Shown in pieces: positions 9,720-56,543 of a stretch of DNA of 64,000 nucleotides. Source of the DNA: Branchiostoma floridae (lineage: Eukaryota > Chordata > Leptocardii > Amphioxiformes > Branchiostomatidae); assembly GCF_000003815.2 (NCBI RefSeq), contig NC_049995.1, positions 15,657,163 through 15,721,162 on the forward strand, given 5' to 3'. Within the stretch, counting starts at the first letter, position 1, and every line of letters begins with the position of its first letter. Both the position numbers and the translations under genes were made by a program. Below the pieces are notes generated by a model. It worked only from the letters and a program-made list of their open reading frames with translations. It had not been told where the DNA came from and did not search any database.

Positions 9720-10170
9720 AAGACAAGATACGAAAAGTGGTAGACATAACAGAACGATCAGCATATATTCAAAAAGAATATTCCAATGGTCTATCAAGTA
9801 CTATTTTGATTGAATATGACTACAATTGGTGACGGTTTACATAGTAGTCACTCATAGTATGGTAGTGTAAGATTTGGTCATGATTTTTCAGAGTGTTGAT
9901 ATCATGTCGTATTATTGACATTAGTTATCAAGGCAAAAGAAATATTGAAACAACGAAGATCAAATCTCTTTGTGTAATCAAAAGCCGACATAACATCAAC
10001 AAACATGTTTTGACGGAAAGACTGTTTACGTTCATCAGACGTTAGTTCAATGTTGTATGAAAGTCACGTCCTCTCTCGCGCGAGTTCAGAGTTGTTTACA
10101 AGTTCGAGAGAACCCCCGATGGGAAACAACGTGCTGAACCGCACGTAAGCACGCCTGGCGTGTGCGAGTG
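9720..10170. other. Unassigned interval
   Basis: No supported feature. The GC content and CG count rise between 10070 and 10160 (TCTCGCGCGAG is a perfect 10-base palindrome plus one base), but nothing downstream looks coding. Confidence 0.35.
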
Positions 10171-10176
10171 GGTTCG

Positions 10177-11250
10177 GTGGGATAGCGATAGGGTAAACTA
10201 ATGAATTTAATATCCCGCGTATCGTCTTGGTCACGTTTATACTAGTAATTGTCGCCGGTAGCTCTTTTCTCTGTAGGAGATATTATATAACTTAACGTTA
10301 TAACGTTACATAGTTATATGATATACACGTAGTTATACATATAGTTATATATTTAATTTTTCGATTGGGTTGGGTGGGATAGCGATAGGGTAATGAATCT
10401 AATATCCCGCGTATCATCTTGGTCACGTTTATACTAGTAATCGTCGCCGGTAGCTCTTTTCTCTGTAGGAGATATATAACTAAACGTTATAACTTTACAT
10501 AGTTATATGATATACATGTAGTTATACATATAGTTAACGTTATATATCTAATTTTTCGATTGGGTCCGGTGGGATAGTGATAGGGTAATGAATTCAATAT
10601 CCCGCGTATCATCTTGGTCACGTTTATACTAGTAATCGTCGCCGGTAGCTCTTTTCATTCTACACGTATCCAACATTCTCTGTAGTTGAGATTACCAAAC
10701 TTTATTACGTTACACAGTTACTAGTATATGATAAACGTGTAACGTTAGTTATAGAAAATATTTAATCATATATTTCATTTTTCGAAAGAGAAGCATATTC
10801 GCATAGTGATAGGGTAGCAAATTTTCAATATCCCGCGTGTCATCTTGGACTCATAATCATCGTCACCGCTAGCTCTTTTTATGCTTTAATAATATTCTAC
10901 ACTTGTCCAACATTCTGTGTAGGAGATGATGTTATATAGGTTAACGCTATAACGCTACATAGTTGTATGATATACATGTAACGTTAGTTATATAATATAG
11001 TTATGTGTTTAATTTCTCGAAAGGGAAACATATATATACTTTTTGCTGCGTTTCTTCTTCTCCTGAACTTTTGTTCCAAACAAAAAAGGTCAACGACCTT
11101 GACCAGACGGCTGTCACCATGGTTACTGGATAAGTAGCAGACGTTATAGGGTAATAAATTTGATATCTGGCGTATAATCTTGGTCACATAATCTTCGCCG
11201 CTAGCTCTTTTCATGCCTTAATATTCTACACGTGTCCAACATTCTCTGTA
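10177..11250. repeat. Tandem array, about 195 bp basic unit, five units
   Basis: Successive units carry GATAGCGATAGGGTAA, TATCCCGCGTATC, CATCTTGGTCACGTTTAT, TCGCCGGTAGCTCTTTTC and TGTAGGAGATAT. They begin near 10181, 10378, 10573, 10801 and about 11133. The first three are regular (197 and 195 bp); the later two diverge and are longer. Each unit also contains a TAACGTTA-rich section with self-complementary words. No coding content. Confidence 0.85.
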
Positions 11251-11331: not shown

Positions 11332-11431
11332 NNNNNNNNNNNNNNNNNNNNNNNNNNNNNNNNNNNNNNNNNNNNNNNNNNNNNNNNNNNNNNNNNNNNN
11401 NNNNNNNNNNNNNNNNNNNNNNNNNNNNNNN
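11332..11431. other. Assembly gap (100 N)
   Basis: Exactly 100 N, next to a CA repeat. Confidence 0.99.
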
Positions 11432-23416: not shown

Positions 23417-23964
23417 ATGCTTGTCGGCAAGCGGCTCGCGAAGAGGTCCATCATCGGGAGCAGAGTGTGCGTGCCCGGCAAGGATGGCTACCTTCACCCG
23501 GGGGTGATTCGAGCTACCAAGTCGGGCTCCCCACCCCCTGAAGCAGCCACCACCACCCCTGGGGAAGCCATCGCCTACTCTGTCGCCCTAGACACGGGAG
23601 AAGTCGTCGAGTTAACCGAAGAGAAGCTGATAGGGTGCGGGTTCCGCGGCATGTGCGGGCTAAAGCTTGAACCGGGACAGCGGGTGTTCCTCACCCACCA
23701 CGGGCGGGAGGTATCCGGCTCTGTCACCGAGCATAAGCCCGAGAATCTCACGGTGATGGTGCAGCTATGTGACCGGGACCAGGCCACCGGCAAGCCGGTA
23801 GTTGTCCAGCGGAGGCTCGAGGATTTGCGGTTGCTGGAGAGTCGAAAGTCGGCCCGCCTCGTGGACCACCAGGACCGGGACTTCGCCAAACTGGCCGACC
23901 CTGCGCCGCAAGACTCTCGCAAGCGGGGAGTCTCACATAGCATCGATGTCCCCAAGAAAGACAG
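23417..23964 (+). CDS. ZNF395-like: ZNF395/ZNF704/SLC2A4RG-family protein, exon 1
   Basis: This exon begins a nuclear DNA-binding protein of the HDBP / GLUT4 enhancer factor family. In vertebrates these are C2H2 transcription factors that bind GCCGGCG-type promoter elements. The N-terminus GKRLAKRSIIGSRV matches the family's conserved start. It is followed by a beta-rich module (GQRVFLTHHGREVSGSV ... VVVQRRLEDLRLLE) like the family's N-terminal domain, and it ends with the conserved SIDVPKK. I chose the ATG at 23417 because family similarity starts there; an in-frame ATG at 23384 would add 11 residues. The exon ends at GACAG|GTATTT in phase 2 and joins 45376 exactly. The high GC content and CG count suggest a promoter-proximal exon. 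Confidence 0.9.
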
Positions 23965-26200: not shown

Positions 26201-26576
26201 ATGTCGTCGCGGTAAGTTGACATCTCTGGATTATTCCTTGGACGTTTCCGTTTGTATAAGTTATATTTTGACAACGAAACATGTGATACGGGAACGAAAA
26301 CATAAAAATTCTCACTATACATGACTTCTCGTTCGATTGAATGCCCATATTTAATTCGAACTCCACAAGGTTAAAGAATTAATCGCGTATTATTATCGTA
26401 ATTTGTTGAGTACAAGTTGAAATACTTAAGTCGTGTTGGCCATGAGCAAACAAGTAAACAAACAAGTAAACAAACAAACAAACAAAGAGGTGCATTTTCT
26501 TTTTAATATCTGATTGATGGTGTATTATTTGGGAAGGGAAATCTCAGTTCATAAACGACATTTGTCTCATTGTCAG
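26201..26576 (+). other. Possible 5' leader intron of the transposase gene
   Basis: The sequence CGCG|GTAAGTTGA at 26212 is a strong donor and CTCATTGTCAG at 26566-26576 a fair acceptor directly before the ATG at 26577. Splicing would place the transposase ATG at the very start of exon 2. An ATG at 26201 just before the donor would be out of frame with the transposase after splicing, so it would be a short upstream frame. Transcript data are needed to settle this. Confidence 0.4.
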
Positions 26577-28532
26577 ATGGCGTCAAGGAGGAAAAAATAT
26601 AACCAGGAAGACATGGATAGAGCTCTACAAGCATTGGAAGAGACAGACGAAAACACACTCAATAATACAGCAAAGGAATATGGTATTCCTCAATCAACAC
26701 TGCATGACAGAGTAACGGGCAAATCGAAAGAAAGGATGGGCAGACCCTCCATCCTCTCACCAGAGGAGGAGGGGGCCCTCGTGGTCTATGCCAAGTATCT
26801 GGCAGAGAAGGGGTTTCCCCCTACAGTCAGGGTGATCAAAGCCCTTGCTTTTGAAGTGGAGAAGAAACGTGCCAAAGGAAGGGGTGAAGAACCTCGCTTC
26901 AAGGACTCCGGCCCCGGGAAGAGATGGTGGAAGGGATTTAAAGGCCGCCATCCCGACCTCAGCTTAAGGTCACCAGATCAACTCGACAAGGAAAGAGCGG
27001 CCTTTTCCACAGCCGGCGTAGTCTTTGAACACTTCGAACGACTGGAGCAAATTCTGACGGATGCAAAAGCCAAGGACAAAAGACCGCATGTTATCTACAA
27101 TGCAGACGAAACTGGCATGGATTTGTCTGCTAAAGTGTCCAAGGTCGTTGTTCCCAAGGGCTGGAAGAGATCTCCGTCACGACGAGTCGGTGGCCGTGAC
27201 CATGTGTCGGCACTTGTGTGCATCTCAGCGGCAGGGCAGACAGTGCCACCCATGATCATATATAATAAAGCGTTTCCGGGGGGGAAATACACTGAGGGCG
27301 GACCTGCTAACGCATTGTACGCTTACTCCGACTCAGGTTTCATTGATGATGAGCTGTTCGAGAGATGGTTCAAGCTATCTTTTCTCAAGCACTGCACAAG
27401 CGACAGGCCGGTAATCCTTATCCTGGATCAGCACTACAGTCACATCACGCTTAGAGTGCTAGAGGATGCAATTCAAAACGACGTTATAATCTTAGGTCTC
27501 CCCCCTCACACGACCCACTTCCTCCAGCCCCTTGATGTGAGTGTGTTCGCGCCACTCAAGAAGAAGTGGGCAATGACCCTGGAAGTGATGCAGGCAGCGA
27601 ACACCTCGTTTCATGTTACAAAACGGAACTTTGCTAACATATTTAGTTCAGTTTATGACAACGCCATCAATCCTGCCATCATCAAGACATCGTTTGCAAA
27701 AACGGGAATTTATCCATTTAATGACGAGGCCGTCGATGACAAATGGATCCGAATGTCTGCAGCGGAGTTGGGGGAGTCAACTTCCACCACGGCGACTCCA
27801 ACTGCCGCGTCATCCACCACGGCAACTCCAACTGCCACGGCCACGTCGTCCACCACGGAAACTCCAACTGCCACGGCCACGTCGTCCACCACGGAAACTC
27901 CAACTGCCACGGCCACGTCGTCCACCACGGAAACTCCAACTGCCACGGCCACGTCGTCCACCACGGAAACTCCAACTGCCACGTCGTCTACCACGGCGAC
28001 TCCTTCCGCGATGACTCCAACTGCCGCTTCTTCTTCTCAACAGGACAGAACACCTGCCAGTGCTTCCAATACTGCTTGCCCAACATGTAATGCGGCATGT
28101 ACAGTTTGTAACCCGCTGCAAAGTCCGTTGATTCAAACTCTCATCCCACCGGAACTGCATGATATCCTCATCCCAATACCACCAGCAAAAAAGTCATCAC
28201 GCTGCAATCTCAACAGACGACTGACTGGTAGAGTGTTAACGCACTCTGAAGTAATGGAAGAGATGCGGTTGAAAGAGAAAGAAAAGAAAGAAAAGGAAGA
28301 AAAGAAAGAACGAAGGAAAGAAGAGATGAAGAAGAAACGCGAGGAGAAGGAGCAGAAAGAGTTGGAAAAGAGGCTGCAGAAAGAAAAGAAACAAGCCGAG
28401 AGTGTAAAGAAGTTGGCAGAAAAGGAAGAGAGAAAACGAAAGAGACAGGAGCTTGCGGAGGCAAGGAAGAAACAACGCATAGAAGGGAAAGAAAACCAGC
28501 GGCCTACTATGCTATGTACTAGGCCACGAGAC
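26577..28532 (+). CDS. Pogo/Tigger-type DDE transposase, main exon
   Basis: This 652-codon exon encodes a cut-and-paste transposase. Residues 1-48 form a Psq-type helix-turn-helix (KYNQEDMDRALQALEE ... YGIPQSTLHDRV). Residues about 55-130 resemble the CENP-B/Tc5 DNA-binding domain (RPSILSPEEEGALVVYAKYL ... RWWKGFKGRHPDLSL). The DDE_1 catalytic core follows, with Asp177 (YNADETG), Asp284 (ILDQHYSH) and Asp320 (LQPLDVS), a DD35D spacing. Then come a Thr/Ser/Pro-rich tandem repeat, a CxxCxxxCxxC motif (about 501-511) and a long K/E-rich coiled-coil or basic tail (about 560-645). I chose the ATG at 26577 because conserved sequence starts there; an in-frame ATG lies at 26514. The exon ends at CGAGAC|GTAAGAG in phase 0. 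The frame is unbroken, so it is recently active or under selection. Confidence 0.9.
27780..28010 (+). repeat. 36 bp coding minisatellite in the transposase
   Basis: The core is a 36-base unit encoding TATATSSTTETP, repeated about four times with near identity and flanked by shorter STTATPTA-like units. It forms a Thr/Ser/Pro linker between the catalytic core and the C-terminal region. Such in-frame repeats are prone to length variation. Confidence 0.92.
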
Positions 28533-28884
28533 GTAAGAGTACGTATCAGGCACATGTTTTTTTCCATATTCAATATCTAATCTTTCAAAATGTTTTTCCC
28601 AGTTCGATAATGTTTATCATATTCGGACAATCCGACTCAATTGATGGAGGTATTCTGGTTCATTTGCTATATACATTTGCTATATTCAGAATTTTGGATT
28701 GTAATAAGAGTGTAGCGAATACAGACACAATAGAATACGTGGTCTTGTGAGCATAACTACATATATCTATAGTTCTCTTTACTATGATCTTAGTTATGAA
28801 TGATGTCTATGTTTTAGTTATAAATGAATTTTTTTTCGTCGAATCAGTTTTACTTTCATGGTTTGTTGTTATACTCGGCCACAG
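28533..28884 (+). other. Predicted intron in the transposase gene
   Basis: The strong donor GTAAGAGTA at 28533 and the acceptor ATACTCGGCCACAG at 28871-28884 bound 352 bases, phase 0 on both sides. Without splicing the frame would read only 15 more codons (VRVRIRHMFFSIFNI) before a stop. Confidence 0.65.
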
Positions 28885-32345: not shown

Positions 32346-33500
32346 GGACAGGTGGTCACTATAGATGGAATTCTTACCACTTGTGTCAATGGGAAAAGTG
32401 GTCATACTGGCCAGATGGTCCTTGTGTACAGGTGGTCACTTGTACAGTTTTGACTTTATCTAGACTAAAGAAAGAAATTCAATAACTTTGACATTGATTC
32501 TTTAGGTTTGGAACTCATAAGAGGAGGTCTGGAATTTGAAGGAACTAGTTTCAATTTCAACCTTTCTTGTTGCCTTCTTGTTGGGTCGTTTGAGGTCACT
32601 GTGGTCATTTTTTGGTTGATAGTTGCCAGGAGTAAATATATAAACAAGTGGACCGAAGCTACAAAGTGGTCAGCGGTCACATTGCCCAGATGGTCCTTGT
32701 GTACAGGTGGTCACTTGTACAGGTTTGGCTTCATCGAAAGAAAAGAAATTCAATATAACTTTGACATTGACTCTTTAGGGTTACAACTTGGAAGAGGCGG
32801 TCTGGAATTTGAAGGAACTAGTTTCAATTTCAACCTTTTCTTGTTGCCTTCTTCTTGGGTCGTTTCAGGTCACCATGGTCATTTTTTGGTTGATAGTTGC
32901 CAGGAGTAAATATATAAACAAGTGGACCGTAGCTACAAAGTGGTCAGCGGTCACATTGCCCAGATGGTCCTTGTGTACAGGTGGTCACTTGTACAGTTTT
33001 GACTTTATCTAGACTAAAGAAAAGAAATTCAATAACTTTGACATTGATTCTTTAGGGTTACAACTTGGAACGGAAAGTCTGGAATTTGAAGGAACTAGTT
33101 TCAATTTCAACCTTTCTTGTTGCCTTCTTGTTGGGTCGTTTGAGGTCACCATGGTCATTTTTTGGTTACTAGTTGTCAGGAGTAAATATATAAACAAGTG
33201 GACCGTAGCTACAAAGTGGTCAGCGATCACATTGCCCAGATGGTCCTTGTGTACAGGTGGTCACTTGTACAGTTTTGACTTTATCTAGACTAAAGAAAAG
33301 AAATTCAATAACTTTGACATTGATTCTTTAGGGTTACAACTTAGAATAGGAGGTCTGGAATTTGAAGGAACTAGTTTCAGAGGAAGCCTCTCTTGCAGCC
33401 TTCATGTTGGGTCGTTTGAGGTCACCATGGTCATTTTTTGGTTGGTAGTTGCCAGGAGTAAATATATAAACAAGTGGACCAATCCCAATGCTAGCAAACG
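32345..33500. repeat. Tandem array, about 275 bp unit, four units
   Basis: The word AAATTCAATA starts at 32475, 32746, 33025 and 33301 (spacings 271, 279, 276). Each unit carries GGTCTGGAATTTGAAGGAAC (GTCTGGAATTTG in unit 3), TAGTTTCA, GGGTCGTTT, GGTCATTTTTTGGTT, AGTAAATATATAAACAAGTG and, in units 1-3, GTGTACAGGTGGTCACTTGT. The last words resemble family C MITE interiors (GTGGTCAC...), so the array may have grown from a MITE. Repeated minus-strand frames (MIADHFVATVHLF...) are a by-product. Units are roughly 90 percent alike. Confidence 0.92.
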
Positions 33501-40770: not shown

Positions 40771-40970
40771 GATGGAGAGGGAAGCTAAAAACAATCTTCA
40801 CAACAAACTAGAAAGTATCAGAAATGTGTAGCACAATTATCTACTACCAACAGGACACTTTAAATGTTTAAATGCCCAGAAAACACTCTAAATCGAGGAC
40901 ACCCAGCCCGTCCGGTGGTGTCGAGTTTCACAAATAAGCGACCAGGTGTTTCACAGATCAGTCTGCAAAG

Positions 40971-41420
40971 TCTCTATAGATAACTTGGCGCCACCCAAAG
41001 AAGTCTACCTAAGTCCTCAAACTATGCCAAAGCAATAACTTGTTTCTTGGTCACAATCTTAAGAATGACAAAATATAGATATTTAGAACTAAGAAGTTTT
41101 CTATCTAAGATTTTGTTAAGTCTCCATAGATAGCTTGACCCCACCCAAAGACTTCTACCTAAGTCTTCAAGCTATGTCAAATCAGTAAAGTGTTTCTAGG
41201 CCAGAATCTTTAGGATAGAAAATTTAGATTCTTAGAACTATATATGAAAGTTTTCTATCTAAGATTTTGTAAGTCTCCATAGATAACTTGATGCCACCCA
41301 AAGATGTGTACCTAAGTCCTCAAACTATGTCAAATCAGTAAAGTGTTTCTAGGCCACAATCTTTAGGATAGAAAGACTTAGAAAATGAGAACTTAAAAGT
41401 CATCTAAACCTAGAATTTTA
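40971..41420. repeat. Tandem array, about 151 bp unit, three units
   Basis: TCTCTATAGATA/TCTCCATAGATA starts at 40971, 41121 and 41274. Each unit continues with ACTTGGCGCCACCCAAAGA-like words, CTACCTAAGTC, CAAACTATG and TTTTCTATCTAAGATTTTGT. Units 2 and 3 are closest to each other. Confidence 0.9.
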
Positions 41421-43436: not shown

Positions 43437-43891
43437 TCCAAATAAGGATTTGTTTTTTGTTAGAATTTTTTTCTGCACAGCCTAAAGTCTACCATGATGA
43501 AGAATACACATAAAGATACAAATACAGACGCTGGTGTATTACACGGAATTGCGGTTATACCAGCTATATAGATACAGATAGAGAAGCTGGCGTGTTACCT
43601 GGTTGGTGGCGGGATAAAGTTTTAAAGTAAGCCAAAGGGCGGTAGCTAGTATTTCGGCTATACAGATACAGATACAAAAGCTGGTGCGTTAAGTCAATAG
43701 GCGGTTAATACCGATAGCTGTACAGATAGAAAATAAACTTAGATGCATTTAAAGCCACGCGATATCACAATCCCTGAAAAAGAAGTCCCCCAATCTTATA
43801 ATTACCCCTTTTTATGTGAGCACCATAGGCTTAACAATTTTTCACGGATATTTTAACTGTCAAATTTCTATAACCACCTGCATTGTCCTGC

Positions 43892-43906
43892 CCCCCCCCC
43901 CCCCCT
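43892..43906. repeat. Poly-C run
   Basis: A run of about 15 C within TGCCC...CTGCGG; copy number in the assembly is probably imprecise. Confidence 0.9.
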
Positions 43907-44183
43907 GCGGCATGAATGGCACGGCCCAGTTCCTGGGTCGCCTTGACCCATATTGATAAGGGGTGCTAAAAAGCGACATGCAGCTGTTGTTTTTCAGTTA
44001 GGCAGCCGACCAATCACAGCTTAGGTTGAAGGTTTGAACTCGGGTTACCTCTAGTTGGAGGGCCTAGGAAAAAAAAATTGTGTTTCCTGTTTGAGGCCGA
44101 AAAAAATAGGGTTGGTAGGGAGGATTGTATTTTTTCTCTTTTTTTAGACTCTGACAAAAACTCTTCTGGTAGAATATAATTAA

Positions 44184-44624
44184 AGGTCTGCTACGCATTT
44201 TTTTGTGCTCAAATTTGAAATATTCTAGAACTAAGAAATCTCAGATTTACTACTACTTTTTGACACTTTTTGACACTTTTGCGTCATTATTTCACGTTTG
44301 CGACGTAGAGAATTAGCCTACAAACATTTCGTCCTACGCGCGCTGTAACTTTCTGACCTCCCTAGTAAGGCACCGGTGAGAATTTGAACAAGAATCAATC
44401 ATCAACGGTTCGTTCGGAAGAAACAAAAGGGCTGAAACCCAGCACGGGCGTGCAGATTCACAGGTTTTCAAACGGGCTTGCACTGCGAAAATATCGACTC
44501 CCGACATGCCTTGAATAGTGTTCCGTAACGTGGTAGGCTTGATTCAACTAACTATATAAAGAAATGATCGGAAAATGGATTTTTTGTTTTCAGTTTGAAG
44601 CGCAAAAAACTGCGTAGCAGACCT
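44184..44624. mobile_element. piggyBac-like MITE (TTAA target)
   Basis: Perfect 14-base inverted ends AGGTCTGCTACGCA / TGCGTAGCAGACCT are flanked on both sides by TTAA (44180-44183 and 44625-44628). A TTAA duplication is diagnostic of piggyBac-type transposition. The 441 bp interior is non-coding. Confidence 0.85.
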
Positions 44625-44768
44625 TTAAACAAAGCAAAATTGAAATGCATGAGGACACATTGATTTCAATCTCAAATTTTAATTTTAAGATTGACAAACA
44701 AACAAACAAACAAACAAGCAAGCAAACAAGTAAACAGCTACCTAACAACATGATTTTATTTTTTGCAG

Positions 44769-44808
44769 AAAAGCGAGTGAGGAGTTTGACATGGATGAGT
44801 GCATAAAA
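44769..44808 (+). pseudogene. Exon 2 copy, 5' half (copy 1)
   Basis: After TTTTTTGCAG it reads AAAAGCGAGTGAGGAGTTTG, then ACATGGATGAGTGCAT, matching exon 2 closely before ending in an A-rich tract. Its upstream flank (CAACATGATTTTATTTTTTG) is shared with copy 5. Confidence 0.88.
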
Positions 44809-44839
44809 ACAAATAAACAATTGTTATTATTTCTTTCAG

Positions 44840-44876
44840 AAAAACAAGTGAGGTGTTTGACAATGGAAAAGCTCTT
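44840..44876 (+). pseudogene. Exon 2 copy, 5' half (copy 2, degraded)
   Basis: After TTTCTTTCAG it reads AAAAACAAGTGAGGTGTTTG, then ACAATGGA; matching is lost afterwards. Confidence 0.8.
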
Positions 44877-44933
44877 CTAAAAAACAAACAAATGAATAAA
44901 CAACTTGTTCTTATTCCATGCAGAAAAACGATG

Positions 44934-44967
44934 AGTTTGACATGTATGAGTGCATTAAGCACTTCTA
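44934..44967 (+). pseudogene. Exon 2 copy, 5' half (copy 3, degraded)
   Basis: After CCATGCAG it reads AAAAACGATGAGTTTGACAT, then GTATGAGTGCAT, with a short internal deletion relative to exon 2. Confidence 0.82.
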
Positions 44968-45035
44968 AACAGACAAACAAACAAACAAACAAAGAAGTGA
45001 ACAGCTATTAACAGCTTTTACTTTATTCCTTCCAG

Positions 45036-45052
45036 AAAAATGAGTGAGTGCA
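45036..45052 (+). pseudogene. Exon 2 copy, remnant (copy 4)
   Basis: Only AAAAATGAGTGAGTGC remains after the acceptor CCTTCCAG. Confidence 0.6.
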
Positions 45053-45109
45053 AACAAACAAACAAATAAATTAACAGCTACGTAACAACATGATTTTATT
45101 TTTTTGCAG

Positions 45110-45180
45110 AAAAACAAGCAAGGATTTTTGACATGGATGAGTGCATGGCCGCCATGATGTTGAGGCCTTAACTGCTTCTT
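45110..45180 (+). pseudogene. Exon 2 copy, 5' half (copy 5)
   Basis: After TTTTTTTGCAG it matches exon 2 through ACATGGATGAGTGCATGGCC and GCCATGAT, then diverges to GTTGAGGCCTTAA. That divergent tail is shared with copy 6. The joined frame would hit a TGA early (AAGGATTTTTGA). Confidence 0.9.
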
Positions 45181-45254
45181 AACAAACAAACAAACGAACA
45201 AACAAACAAACAAGTAAGAAACTACATAACAAGAATTGTTTGTTTTTTCTCCAG

Positions 45255-45327
45255 GAAAACGAGTGAGGAGTTTGACATGGATGAGTGTATGGCTGCCATG
45301 ATGTTGAGGCCTTAAGTGCCTCATAAC
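45255..45327 (+). pseudogene. Exon 2 copy, 5' half (copy 6), reading frame intact to a stop
   Basis: After TTTTTTCTCCAG the sequence is nearly identical to exon 2 for 50 bases. If spliced to exon 1 it would encode RKTSEEFDMDECMAAMMLRP followed by TAA (45313-45315). It has no donor, so it could only serve as a terminal exon yielding a protein that lacks the zinc finger. Whether it is ever used is unknown. Confidence 0.85.
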
Positions 45328-45375
45328 AAACAAACAAACAAACAAACAAACAAATCTTGTTGTTATTCGTTGCAG

Positions 45376-45497
45376 GAAAACGAGTGAGGAGTTTGACATG
45401 GATGAGTGCATGGCCGCCATGATCCTCACCAGCCTCTCCTGCAGCCCTGTCTGCAGACAAGCATCAGACGACAGCTCTGTGAGCTCCGGTACATCAG
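45376..45497 (+). CDS. ZNF395-like: ZNF395/ZNF704/SLC2A4RG-family protein, exon 2
   Basis: This 122-base exon joins exon 1 in phase 2 (AG|G restores Arg) and encodes KTSEEFDMDECMAAMILTSL, then SCSPVCRQASDDSSVSSGTS. The block DECMAAMILTSLSCSPV is the strongest family signature: vertebrate ZNF395 has a nearly identical MAAM-LTSLSCSPV stretch at the same place between the N-terminal module and the Ser-rich linker. It is followed by SGTSG as expected. Acceptor TTCGTTGCAG, donor ATCAG|GTACGT (phase 1). It is the only complete member of the surrounding array of exon copies. Confidence 0.93.
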
Positions 45498-45584
45498 GTA
45501 CGTTTGTACTTACTGTAAAAACAAACAAACAAACAAACAAACAAACTTCTGTTCCTACCCTATCCTAACCAGTCTATCCTGTAG

Positions 45585-45625
45585 ACAAGCGTCCGACGAC
45601 AGCTCTGTGAGCTCCGGTACATCAG
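45585..45625 (+). pseudogene. Exon 2 copy, 3' half (first downstream copy)
   Basis: Matches the last 41 bases of exon 2 (ACAAGCGTCCGACGACAGCT ... GGTACATCAG) and the donor GTACGT. Upstream CCTAACCAGTCTATCCTGTAG also aligns, with a 12-base deletion. If spliced after exon 2 it would shift the frame to an early TGA. Confidence 0.9.
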
Positions 45626-45691
45626 GTACGTTGTCCTCACTGTAAAAAACAAACAAACTTCCTACCCTGTCTTTACCAGTCAATCCTGCAG

Positions 45692-45732
45692 ACAAGCGTC
45701 CGACGACAGCTCCGTAAGCTCCAGTACATCAG
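45692..45732 (+). pseudogene. Exon 2 copy, 3' half (second downstream copy)
   Basis: ACAAGCGTCCGACGACAGCT, then CCGTAAGCTCCAGTACATCAG and a donor-like GTATGT. It is slightly more diverged than the first downstream copy. Confidence 0.9.
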
Positions 45733-45790
45733 GTATGTTACATGGTCATCCATGGACCACTACTATGATCCTGGAAGACAGGCTGTTGCC

Positions 45791-45890: not shown

Positions 45891-46210
45891 AACTTAAAAA
45901 ACAAACTATTTTTATGGTCTTAAAATGACATGTTTTAACCAGGAAAAGGAATAACATGGGCTCCCGATCCCAAATAATGAGTGGGACAGAAAAAAATGTA
46001 AAGCTGGAGATGTCCCTTCTTTCAGGACATGATCACAATTTGCAATTGACTTATAAACTTTTATAGACCTTTTTTTCTTCTTCTTGTTCTTCAGGAGAGA
46101 AGCCGCCTTGTATAATAATTTTCATTGTTCAAACAAATGACCTGGATACTAAAGAATACTAAAGGAGTTTACCTGGATAATAAGGAGTTTTTGTTCATCT
46201 CATTTTCCAG

Positions 46211-46470
46211 GAGAGAAGCCCCCAATGAGTCCCCAGCACTGGCACGAAGGTCTCCTGTCCTCGTCACTAAACAGCAGCAGTGGGGCAAGCAGCATCAGTA
46301 CCCTCAGCATGCGCTCCTCCCCCTCCCCCCCACACAAACCCCCCACCCCTCCCTCCACGTGCGACAACCCCCCCACCACCATGTTTGGAACTCCCCCTGT
46401 GGACGAGGGCATCGACCTGGGGGAGAGCCACGACTTCTTCTTGGAGGGGAGATCACCGAGGAAGAGGAAG
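46211..46470 (+). CDS. ZNF395-like: ZNF395/ZNF704/SLC2A4RG-family protein, exon 3
   Basis: The acceptor CTCATTTTCCAG and the phase 1 join with exon 2 give GEKPPMSPQHWHEG, then a Ser-rich segment and a long Pro-rich run (SPPHKPPTPPSTCDNPPTTM). Next comes FGTPPVDEGIDLGESHDFFL, ending SPRKRK at the donor AAG|GTGCGT in phase 0. In family members the same order is seen: W-x-Ser-Gly/Ser-rich, FG(S/T)P, an acidic D/E-F stretch, then RKRK directly before the C2H2 finger. The basic RKRK is a plausible nuclear-localisation signal. Together exons 1-3 encode 310 residues. The zinc-finger exon is not in this window as far as I can see. Confidence 0.9.
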
Positions 46471-47225: not shown

Positions 47226-47229
47226 TTTT

Positions 47230-47660
47230 TCTGGTGGCCTACAGATGTTGAAAATAGGTCTCATTCATTCATTTCTTTCATCCTATTCAATCATAAGTAT
47301 AGTTCTTTCATTTATTGCAAAGGAAACATTTTAAATGGTCACAGAAACATTACTTTCAGAAAGTATTGCAAGGTTCTAGTGGCCTATAGATATTGAAAAT
47401 ACATGTAGGTCTCATTCATTCATTTCTTTAATCCTACTCAACCATAAGTACTATAGTTCCTCCCTTTGTTGCAAAGGAAGCATTTATGTGATCACAGAAA
47501 CATTACTTTCATATAGTATTTCAAGGTTCTAGTGGCCTATAGATGTTGAAAATAGGTCACAAACTTTAATTTCTTTTATCCTACTCAATCATAAGTATAG
47601 TTCTTCCCTTTATTGCAAAGGAAGCATTTTATGTGGTCACAGAAAATCATTTTTCATCAT
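47230..47660. repeat. Tandem array, about 150 bp unit, three units
   Basis: GGCCTA(C/T)AGAT(G/A)TTGAAAATA starts at 47236, 47391 and 47534 and is followed in each unit by AATCATAAGTA or AACCATAAGTA, TTGCAAAGGAA, and (T/A)GGTCACAGAAA or TGATCACAGAAA. Confidence 0.9.
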
Positions 47661-55629: not shown

Positions 55630-56543
55630 NNNNNNNNNNNNNNNNNNNNNNNNNNNNNNNNNNNNNNNNNNNNNNNNNNNNNNNNNNNNNNNNNNNNNNN
55701 NNNNNNNNNNNNNNNNNNNNNNNNNNNNNNNNNNNNNNNNNNNNNNNNNNNNNNNNNNNNNNNNNNNNNNNNNNNNNNNNNNNNNNNNNNNNNNNNNNNN
55801 NNNNNNNNNNNNNNNNNNNNNNNNNNNNNNNNNNNNNNNNNNNNNNNNNNNNNNNNNNNNNNNNNNNNNNNNNNNNNNNNNNNNNNNNNNNNNNNNNNNN
55901 NNNNNNNNNNNNNNNNNNNNNNNNNNNNNNNNNNNNNNNNNNNNNNNNNNNNNNNNNNNNNNNNNNNNNNNNNNNNNNNNNNNNNNNNNNNNNNNNNNNN
56001 NNNNNNNNNNNNNNNNNNNNNNNNNNNNNNNNNNNNNNNNNNNNNNNNNNNNNNNNNNNNNNNNNNNNNNNNNNNNNNNNNNNNNNNNNNNNNNNNNNNN
56101 NNNNNNNNNNNNNNNNNNNNNNNNNNNNNNNNNNNNNNNNNNNNNNNNNNNNNNNNNNNNNNNNNNNNNNNNNNNNNNNNNNNNNNNNNNNNNNNNNNNN
56201 NNNNNNNNNNNNNNNNNNNNNNNNNNNNNNNNNNNNNNNNNNNNNNNNNNNNNNNNNNNNNNNNNNNNNNNNNNNNNNNNNNNNNNNNNNNNNNNNNNNN
56301 NNNNNNNNNNNNNNNNNNNNNNNNNNNNNNNNNNNNNNNNNNNNNNNNNNNNNNNNNNNNNNNNNNNNNNNNNNNNNNNNNNNNNNNNNNNNNNNNNNNN
56401 NNNNNNNNNNNNNNNNNNNNNNNNNNNNNNNNNNNNNNNNNNNNNNNNNNNNNNNNNNNNNNNNNNNNNNNNNNNNNNNNNNNNNNNNNNNNNNNNNNNN
56501 NNNNNNNNNNNNNNNNNNNNNNNNNNNNNNNNNNNNNNNNNNN
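55630..56543. other. Assembly gap (914 N)
   Basis: 914 N. It probably hides the rest of one MITE and part of an inverted large element. Confidence 0.99.

Follow-up and report, generated by a model that had tools for sequence, protein, structure and literature searches.

The window, that is, the whole 64-kb stretch of DNA that was analysed, carries on its + strand three exons of a ZNF395/ZNF704-like transcription-factor gene: (i) exon 1 (23417-23964), which encodes the Pfam domain PF15997 (DUF4772), ends in codon phase AG| and is followed by the donor GTATTT; (ii) an intact exon 2 (45376-45497; hereafter, E), which encodes KTSEEFDMDECMAAMILTSLSCSPVCRQASDDSSVSSGTS, including a conserved MDE.MAAM.LTSLSCSP motif; and (iii) exon 3 (46211-46470). 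Exons 1 and 3 each match P0001, a B. floridae record named "zinc finger protein 395-like", at 100%, and the translation of exons 1-3 does so over the whole query; the locus is assigned to B. floridae through P0001, in which the intact exon 2 is used. The same translation has an 88% match to a second record, P0002, entered under B. floridae x B. belcheri and named "zinc finger protein 704-like isoform X1". P0001 ends at residue 320 (46470), where P0002 continues as a zinc-finger region, and this public gene model looks truncated when both records are compared.

In human ZNF395, the region CR1 contains a nuclear export signal (NES), which is abolished by altering M169 and M172; the CR1 deletion described in the same source removed residues 165-188 (PMC3781154). 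Judging from the motif, exon 2 probably encodes this CR1/NES region.

Intron 1 contains an uninterrupted frame of 688 amino acids (26514-28580) with a DDE_1 domain, sub-threshold matches to Tc5/Psq-type HTH domains and five 36-bp repeats at 27804-27983; we take it to be a pogo/Tigger-like transposase. Tandem arrays are present at 10165-10656 (195-bp unit), 32400-33480 (276-bp unit), 40968-41400 (153-bp unit) and 47229-47645 (153-bp unit). By their coordinates, the 276-bp array and both 153-bp arrays fall in introns of the ZNF395-like gene.

Exon 2 is surrounded by an array of partial copies of itself, as a previous, sequence-only reading of this DNA had proposed: its 5' boundary is repeated six times to the left (L1 to L6) and its 3' boundary twice to the right (R1 and R2), all the copies being on the + strand. 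Each left unit is formed by a pyrimidine tract, an AG and then the first part of exon 2, and the AG acceptor is indeed kept in all six. L1 (44694-44804, bounds approximate) starts with an (AAAC)n tract, followed by a polypyrimidine stretch, the AG and an exonic part from 44769 which matches the exon at 33/35 bases. The exonic part of L2 (44805-44878, bounds approximate) begins at 44840 and has a 1-nt insertion, while that of L3 (44879-44966, bounds approximate) has a small deletion and begins at 44924, and not at 44934, the latter position being a miscount in the previous reading. L4 (44967-45051), which was aligned with the other units, has an exonic part from 45036 that is mostly missing. 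In L5 (45052-45180, bounds approximate; repeat family D10), the exonic part begins at 45110 and is followed by a non-exonic tail. Finally, L6 (45181-45327) contains exonic bases 45255-45302, 46/48 of them matching the exon, and a tail at 45303-45327. The distances from each acceptor to the following one are 71, 84, 112, 74, 145 and 121 nt. The left copies had been described as decayed, which is correct for L2 to L5, with their indels, but not for L1 and L6.

The non-exonic tail is common to L5 and L6 (22/25 bases); it starts after ATGAT and, in L6, runs to an in-frame TAA. When folded as RNA, the tail of L6 can form a short hairpin and that of L5 a weaker one (-8.5 and -4.5 kcal/mol, respectively), which may be a relic of the event that created the first junction. 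Further to the left, at 43690-44690, no additional copy is supported (161/1000 shuffles were as good). The left units contain three AATAAA polyadenylation motifs, a number reached by 71/1000 shuffles and, hence, not significant.

On the right side, R1 (45562-45625) and R2 (45669-45732) correspond to the same 64-base segment of the 3' part of exon 2 (ILTSLSC/RQASDDSSVSSGTS) and share a 12-nt in-frame deletion that removes four exon codons (SPVC or equivalent register). Both retain a GT donor, at 45626 and 45733, as previously read, and the donor-to-donor distances are 128 and 107 nt. When aligned with the 12-nt gap, an arrangement preferred to the one given by MAFFT, R1 matches the exon at 58/64 bases. 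In addition to the donor, both copies carry an AG acceptor-like site; in R1, this internal AG would give a 41-nt exon at 45585-45625, while the acceptor position in R2 is 45692.

The similarity to exon 2 is better than chance for seven of the eight copies, whose score was never equalled in 2000 dinucleotide shuffles each. L4 is marginal, with 11 matched bases only and a score equalled by 11/2000 shuffles. A tree of the units, another suggestion of the previous reading, could be built, but none of its four inner branches is supported. Protein searches for such arrays in other individuals or species gave no match at E<=1 among 87 candidates with the + strand frame at 45308-45565, and none at E<=0.001 among 7976 scored sequences with the - strand frame at 44968-45564.

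The sequence-only reading knew of no named system of this kind. Actually, the phenomenon has already been described in amphioxus under the name of "mirages" (PMC3087553; PMC3902484), minisatellite-like tandem duplications of exon/intron boundaries (PMC3087553). We consider, with a probability of about 0.86, that the array is a mirage, that is, a minisatellite-like boundary duplication, in this case on both sides of one exon.

Regarding the junctions between units, nearly all of them had been described as AAAC tracts. By eye, 8/8 internal junctions look AAAC-like, but Tandem Repeats Finder reports a 4-base tract at only four of them (L3/L4, L5/L6, L6/E and E/R1), plus another one to the left of L1. 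These tracts span 44694-44729, 44967-44993, 45181-45213, 45325-45354 and 45519-45546, the last one being an (AAAC)7 tract between E and R1 on the + strand. There is no AAAC tract at the outer edge of R2. Counting either strand, the array holds four of the five perfect tracts of at least four AAAC repeats in the window.

It is hardly credible that the half-copies were created by misassembly due to high heterozygosity, as the stacking of two haplotypes of a whole exon cannot give half-exons bounded by AAAC, and every unit has its own substitutions or indels. The window does include five N gaps elsewhere, but the closest ones are approximately 33 kb away on the left (ending at 11431) and 10 kb away on the right (beginning at 55630). 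In favour of an artefact, the mirage of the globin gene BflGb6 appeared aberrantly assembled in the draft genome (PMC3087553), P0001 is a gene prediction on a genome and, in consequence, no independent proof of the array, and the copy number of the array in the assembly could be wrong.

As far as the origin of the mirage is concerned, the initial duplications would have run between an AAAC-rich stretch of the intron and a point within exon 2, just past ATGAT, with the acceptor side of the exon being copied leftwards and the donor side rightwards. We infer that the array then grew by using the AAAC tracts as points of exchange or slippage, the left unit reaching six copies and the right unit two. 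The central exon, the sole keeper of both boundaries and of the full frame, is presumably the spliced one, and its splicing would be normal; the half-copies would be decaying intronic by-products, although the closest one on each side retains a coding appearance. The repeated exchange or slippage at AAAC tracts put forward in the previous reading is a plausible account of the growth of the array, but no special centring on the exon is needed. Nor is the polarity of the array a signature of such centring, since it is forced by tandem duplication across a boundary and is uninformative on the mechanism: a duplication from the intron into the exon leaves the intact exon beside the rest of the exon, and hence 5' halves are found only on the left, while the mirror geometry leaves 3' halves only on the right. 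In an alignment of 19 rows, including enteropneusts, vertebrates and protostomes, the MDE.MAAM.LTSLSCSP stretch is ungapped, with substitutions, in the 18 rows that reach it (P0003 stops short of the motif). As the half-copies split a motif that is ungapped in relatives, uninterrupted coding would be ancestral at the protein level and the halves derived.

The inner breakpoints of both sides overlap by 2 nt: exon offset 47 is the last one present in L6, and offset 46 the first one present in R1. Two random points in 122 nt fall within 2 nt of each other in around 4% of trials, and only L5 and L6 among the left units reach the inner breakpoint. This overlap fits one split of an exon copy, and it is something that two independent duplications would not explain. 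Furthermore, the substitutions in the innermost copies are of a particular kind: the six differences between R1 and E are all synonymous third-position changes, and the two differences between L6 and E are also synonymous, while R2 shows 11 differences (seven synonymous and four nonsynonymous). Under a model in which the copy is neutral and E is free to change only synonymously, copies with indels being cut at the first indel, P is 0.004 for R1, 0.06 for L6 and 0.09 to 0.51 for the other six copies; these tests are post hoc and based on small numbers, and the P value of R1 multiplied by the eight copies is about 0.03. Distinct changes over the eight copies, merged by hand, amount to 13 synonymous and eight not, an excess with P of 0.01 or 0.04 for expected fractions of 0.35 or 0.40, respectively. 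From the substitutions, there is a hint that the copies nearest to the exon either were still constrained as coding sequence while much of their divergence accumulated or have been renewed from the exon.

Both the breakpoints and the synonymous changes can be read as exon turnover: L6 and R1 would have belonged, not long ago, to a complete exon 2 that was being translated and that was split by an exchange that installed a new exon. In a special form of turnover, a single old exon would have given rise to both L6 and R1, its two halves, with E inserted in the middle. We regard this possibility as doubtful. Although the abutting ends and the lack of nonsynonymous changes in R1 and L6 are in its favour, as is the overall synonymous excess, the numbers are small and the test was selected once the data had been seen, four conserved codons are missing from R1, none of the remaining six copies departs from the neutral model, L5 has the tail of L6 without its conservation, and gene conversion from the working exon would look similar. 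Its extension, according to which the working exon is not a fixed one and AAAC exchange repeatedly halves the old exon while leaving a fresh intact copy in between, L6 and R1 being the halves of a former exon 2 whose translation lasted up to the split, is rather unlikely; if true, exons that replace themselves would have left their history in the mirages.

The consequences for splicing were deduced by checking the frame of the possible combinations, with exons 1 and 3 held fixed. When any of the six left acceptors is joined to the donor of E, R1 or R2, a premature stop results in 18/18 cases, as it does when E is extended to the donor of R1 or R2. Inclusion of R1, of R2 or of the two together as cassettes after E gives a stop or a product out of frame, and exon 3 is read in a shifted frame if exon 2 is skipped. 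The in-frame options are, then, the following: (i) E; (ii) three internal AGs of E, with the donor of E; (iii) R1 alone; and (iv) R2 alone. On paper, the array would offer mostly unproductive splice alternatives, together with a short in-frame exon without the motif.

It had been suggested that the array provides decoy sites that may tune the inclusion of exon 2; in that case, the left acceptors and the right donors would compete with the real sites and yield stop-containing mRNA. Use of a half-copy site would lower the protein output, given the stops in 18/18 pairings and in both extensions of E. The AG is never lost in the left copies, the pyrimidine fraction surpasses that of E (0.71) in L4 (0.88), L6 (0.82), and L2 and L3 (0.76 each), and the right donors read CAG|GTACGT and CAG|GTATGT. 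Nevertheless, the retention of the AG across six related copies may have no significance, the outer copies decay freely, and, as reported in PMC3087553, globin RT-PCR and the Adh3 data suggest that regular splicing is undisturbed. Selection keeping the decoy acceptors was considered and not adopted, because the units are not independent of each other and the AG itself served to anchor their alignment. Tuning of splicing is improbable and not needed to explain the array, which probably results from the instability of the repeats rather than being a device for splicing.

A different role, even less probable, would be the use of R1 or R2 in place of exon 2, as a short alternative exon that gives a protein without the MDE.MAAM.LTSLSCSP motif. 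Both right copies are open in the frame from exon 1 to exon 3, and the joining of exon 1 to R1 (45585-45625) or R2 and then to exon 3 is in frame, whereas skipping of exon 2 is not. However, the three AGs inside E already have the same phase, so that the phase of the short exon is inherited, not evolved. Its acceptor tract is weaker than the others (pyrimidine fraction of 0.65), and four of the six synonymous changes of R1 lie upstream of its AG and are left unexplained by the cassette idea. We consider this role very improbable.

Exon 2 is likely, although not certainly, not the only exon of this gene with a duplicated boundary. A candidate copy of the 5' boundary of exon 3 (CAG|GAGAGAAGCCGCC; 15/16 bases) is present in intron 2, at 46092-46107 on the + strand, preceded by a pyrimidine-rich tract (0.94). 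It contains the AG and 13 exonic bases, and its exon-like part starts 116 nt upstream of exon 3. Its score was reached by 1/2000 shuffles, and by 14/2000 when the exonic side alone was considered; with only 13 exonic bases, it would represent a second boundary duplication in the ZNF395-like gene. By contrast with this candidate, copies of the 3' ends of exon 1 and exon 3 in the following 1 kb are not supported (601/1000 and 947/1000 shuffles, respectively).

Mirages have been reported at Adh3 (Canestro et al., 2002) and at the globin genes BflGb6 and BflGb9 (PMC3087553), as well as at PGBD5, troponin C (TnC) being also cited (PMC3902484). The array shares with them (i) the organization in tandem units spanning a boundary, here six 5' and two 3' units, with the AG or GT kept in many of them; (ii) the scale of the units, with spacings of 71-145 nt on the left and 107-128 nt on the right, the published range being 10-160 bp (PMC3087553); and (iii) the host genus, the cephalochordate origin of this DNA being given by P0001. 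In BflGb6, the 5' boundary of exon 2 is present in six and three units on two haplotypes, while BflGb9 has a 3'-boundary duplicate; the Adh3 mirage, as cited in the same source, occurs in two Branchiostoma species and shows somatic instability (PMC3087553). The units of BflGb6 are 81-100% identical (PMC3087553); here, the exonic parts of L1, L6 and R1 exceed 90%, whereas those of L2 to L5 are lower and have indels, so that most left units are more decayed than those of BflGb6. Imperfect repeats that overlap splice sites have also been described in PGBD5 (PMC3902484).

There are, on the other hand, several differences from the mirages as described in the available portions of PMC3087553 and PMC3902484. 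Both boundaries of one exon are amplified here, whereas the published mirages involve a 5' or a 3' boundary, and a two-sided amplification of one exon is not described in those portions. They do not mention AAAC either, whereas the junctions here are AAAC-rich. Unlike in the published mirages, the inner breakpoints of the two sides overlap, and the innermost copies differ from the exon solely at synonymous sites. Among the papers listed on Branchiostoma mirages and on amphioxus minisatellites, none is titled for the ZNF395-like gene.

Mutually exclusive tandem exons (PMC9013439) are also local tandem copies located beside a source exon. But while those are complete exons, here the 3' half and the donor are missing on the left and the 5' half on the right and, hence, the copies are not interchangeable. 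Mirages have been proposed as a route to new introns, and some of their units could act as cryptic splice sites (PMC3087553); the RdRp gene of potato is reported as a case of intron gain by tandem duplication (PMC4974935). The array resembles the model of intron gain by tandem duplication of splice sites (PMC3087553) in that a coding exon is flanked by duplicated pieces bearing acceptors and donors, but its intact exon is uninterrupted and it shows no new intron. To the amphioxus mirages named in PMC3087553 and PMC3902484, the ZNF395-like gene adds a conserved regulator, in which the half-copies on either side can be set against the intact exon, and this comparison would allow a test of neutral turnover versus new introns versus exon replacement.
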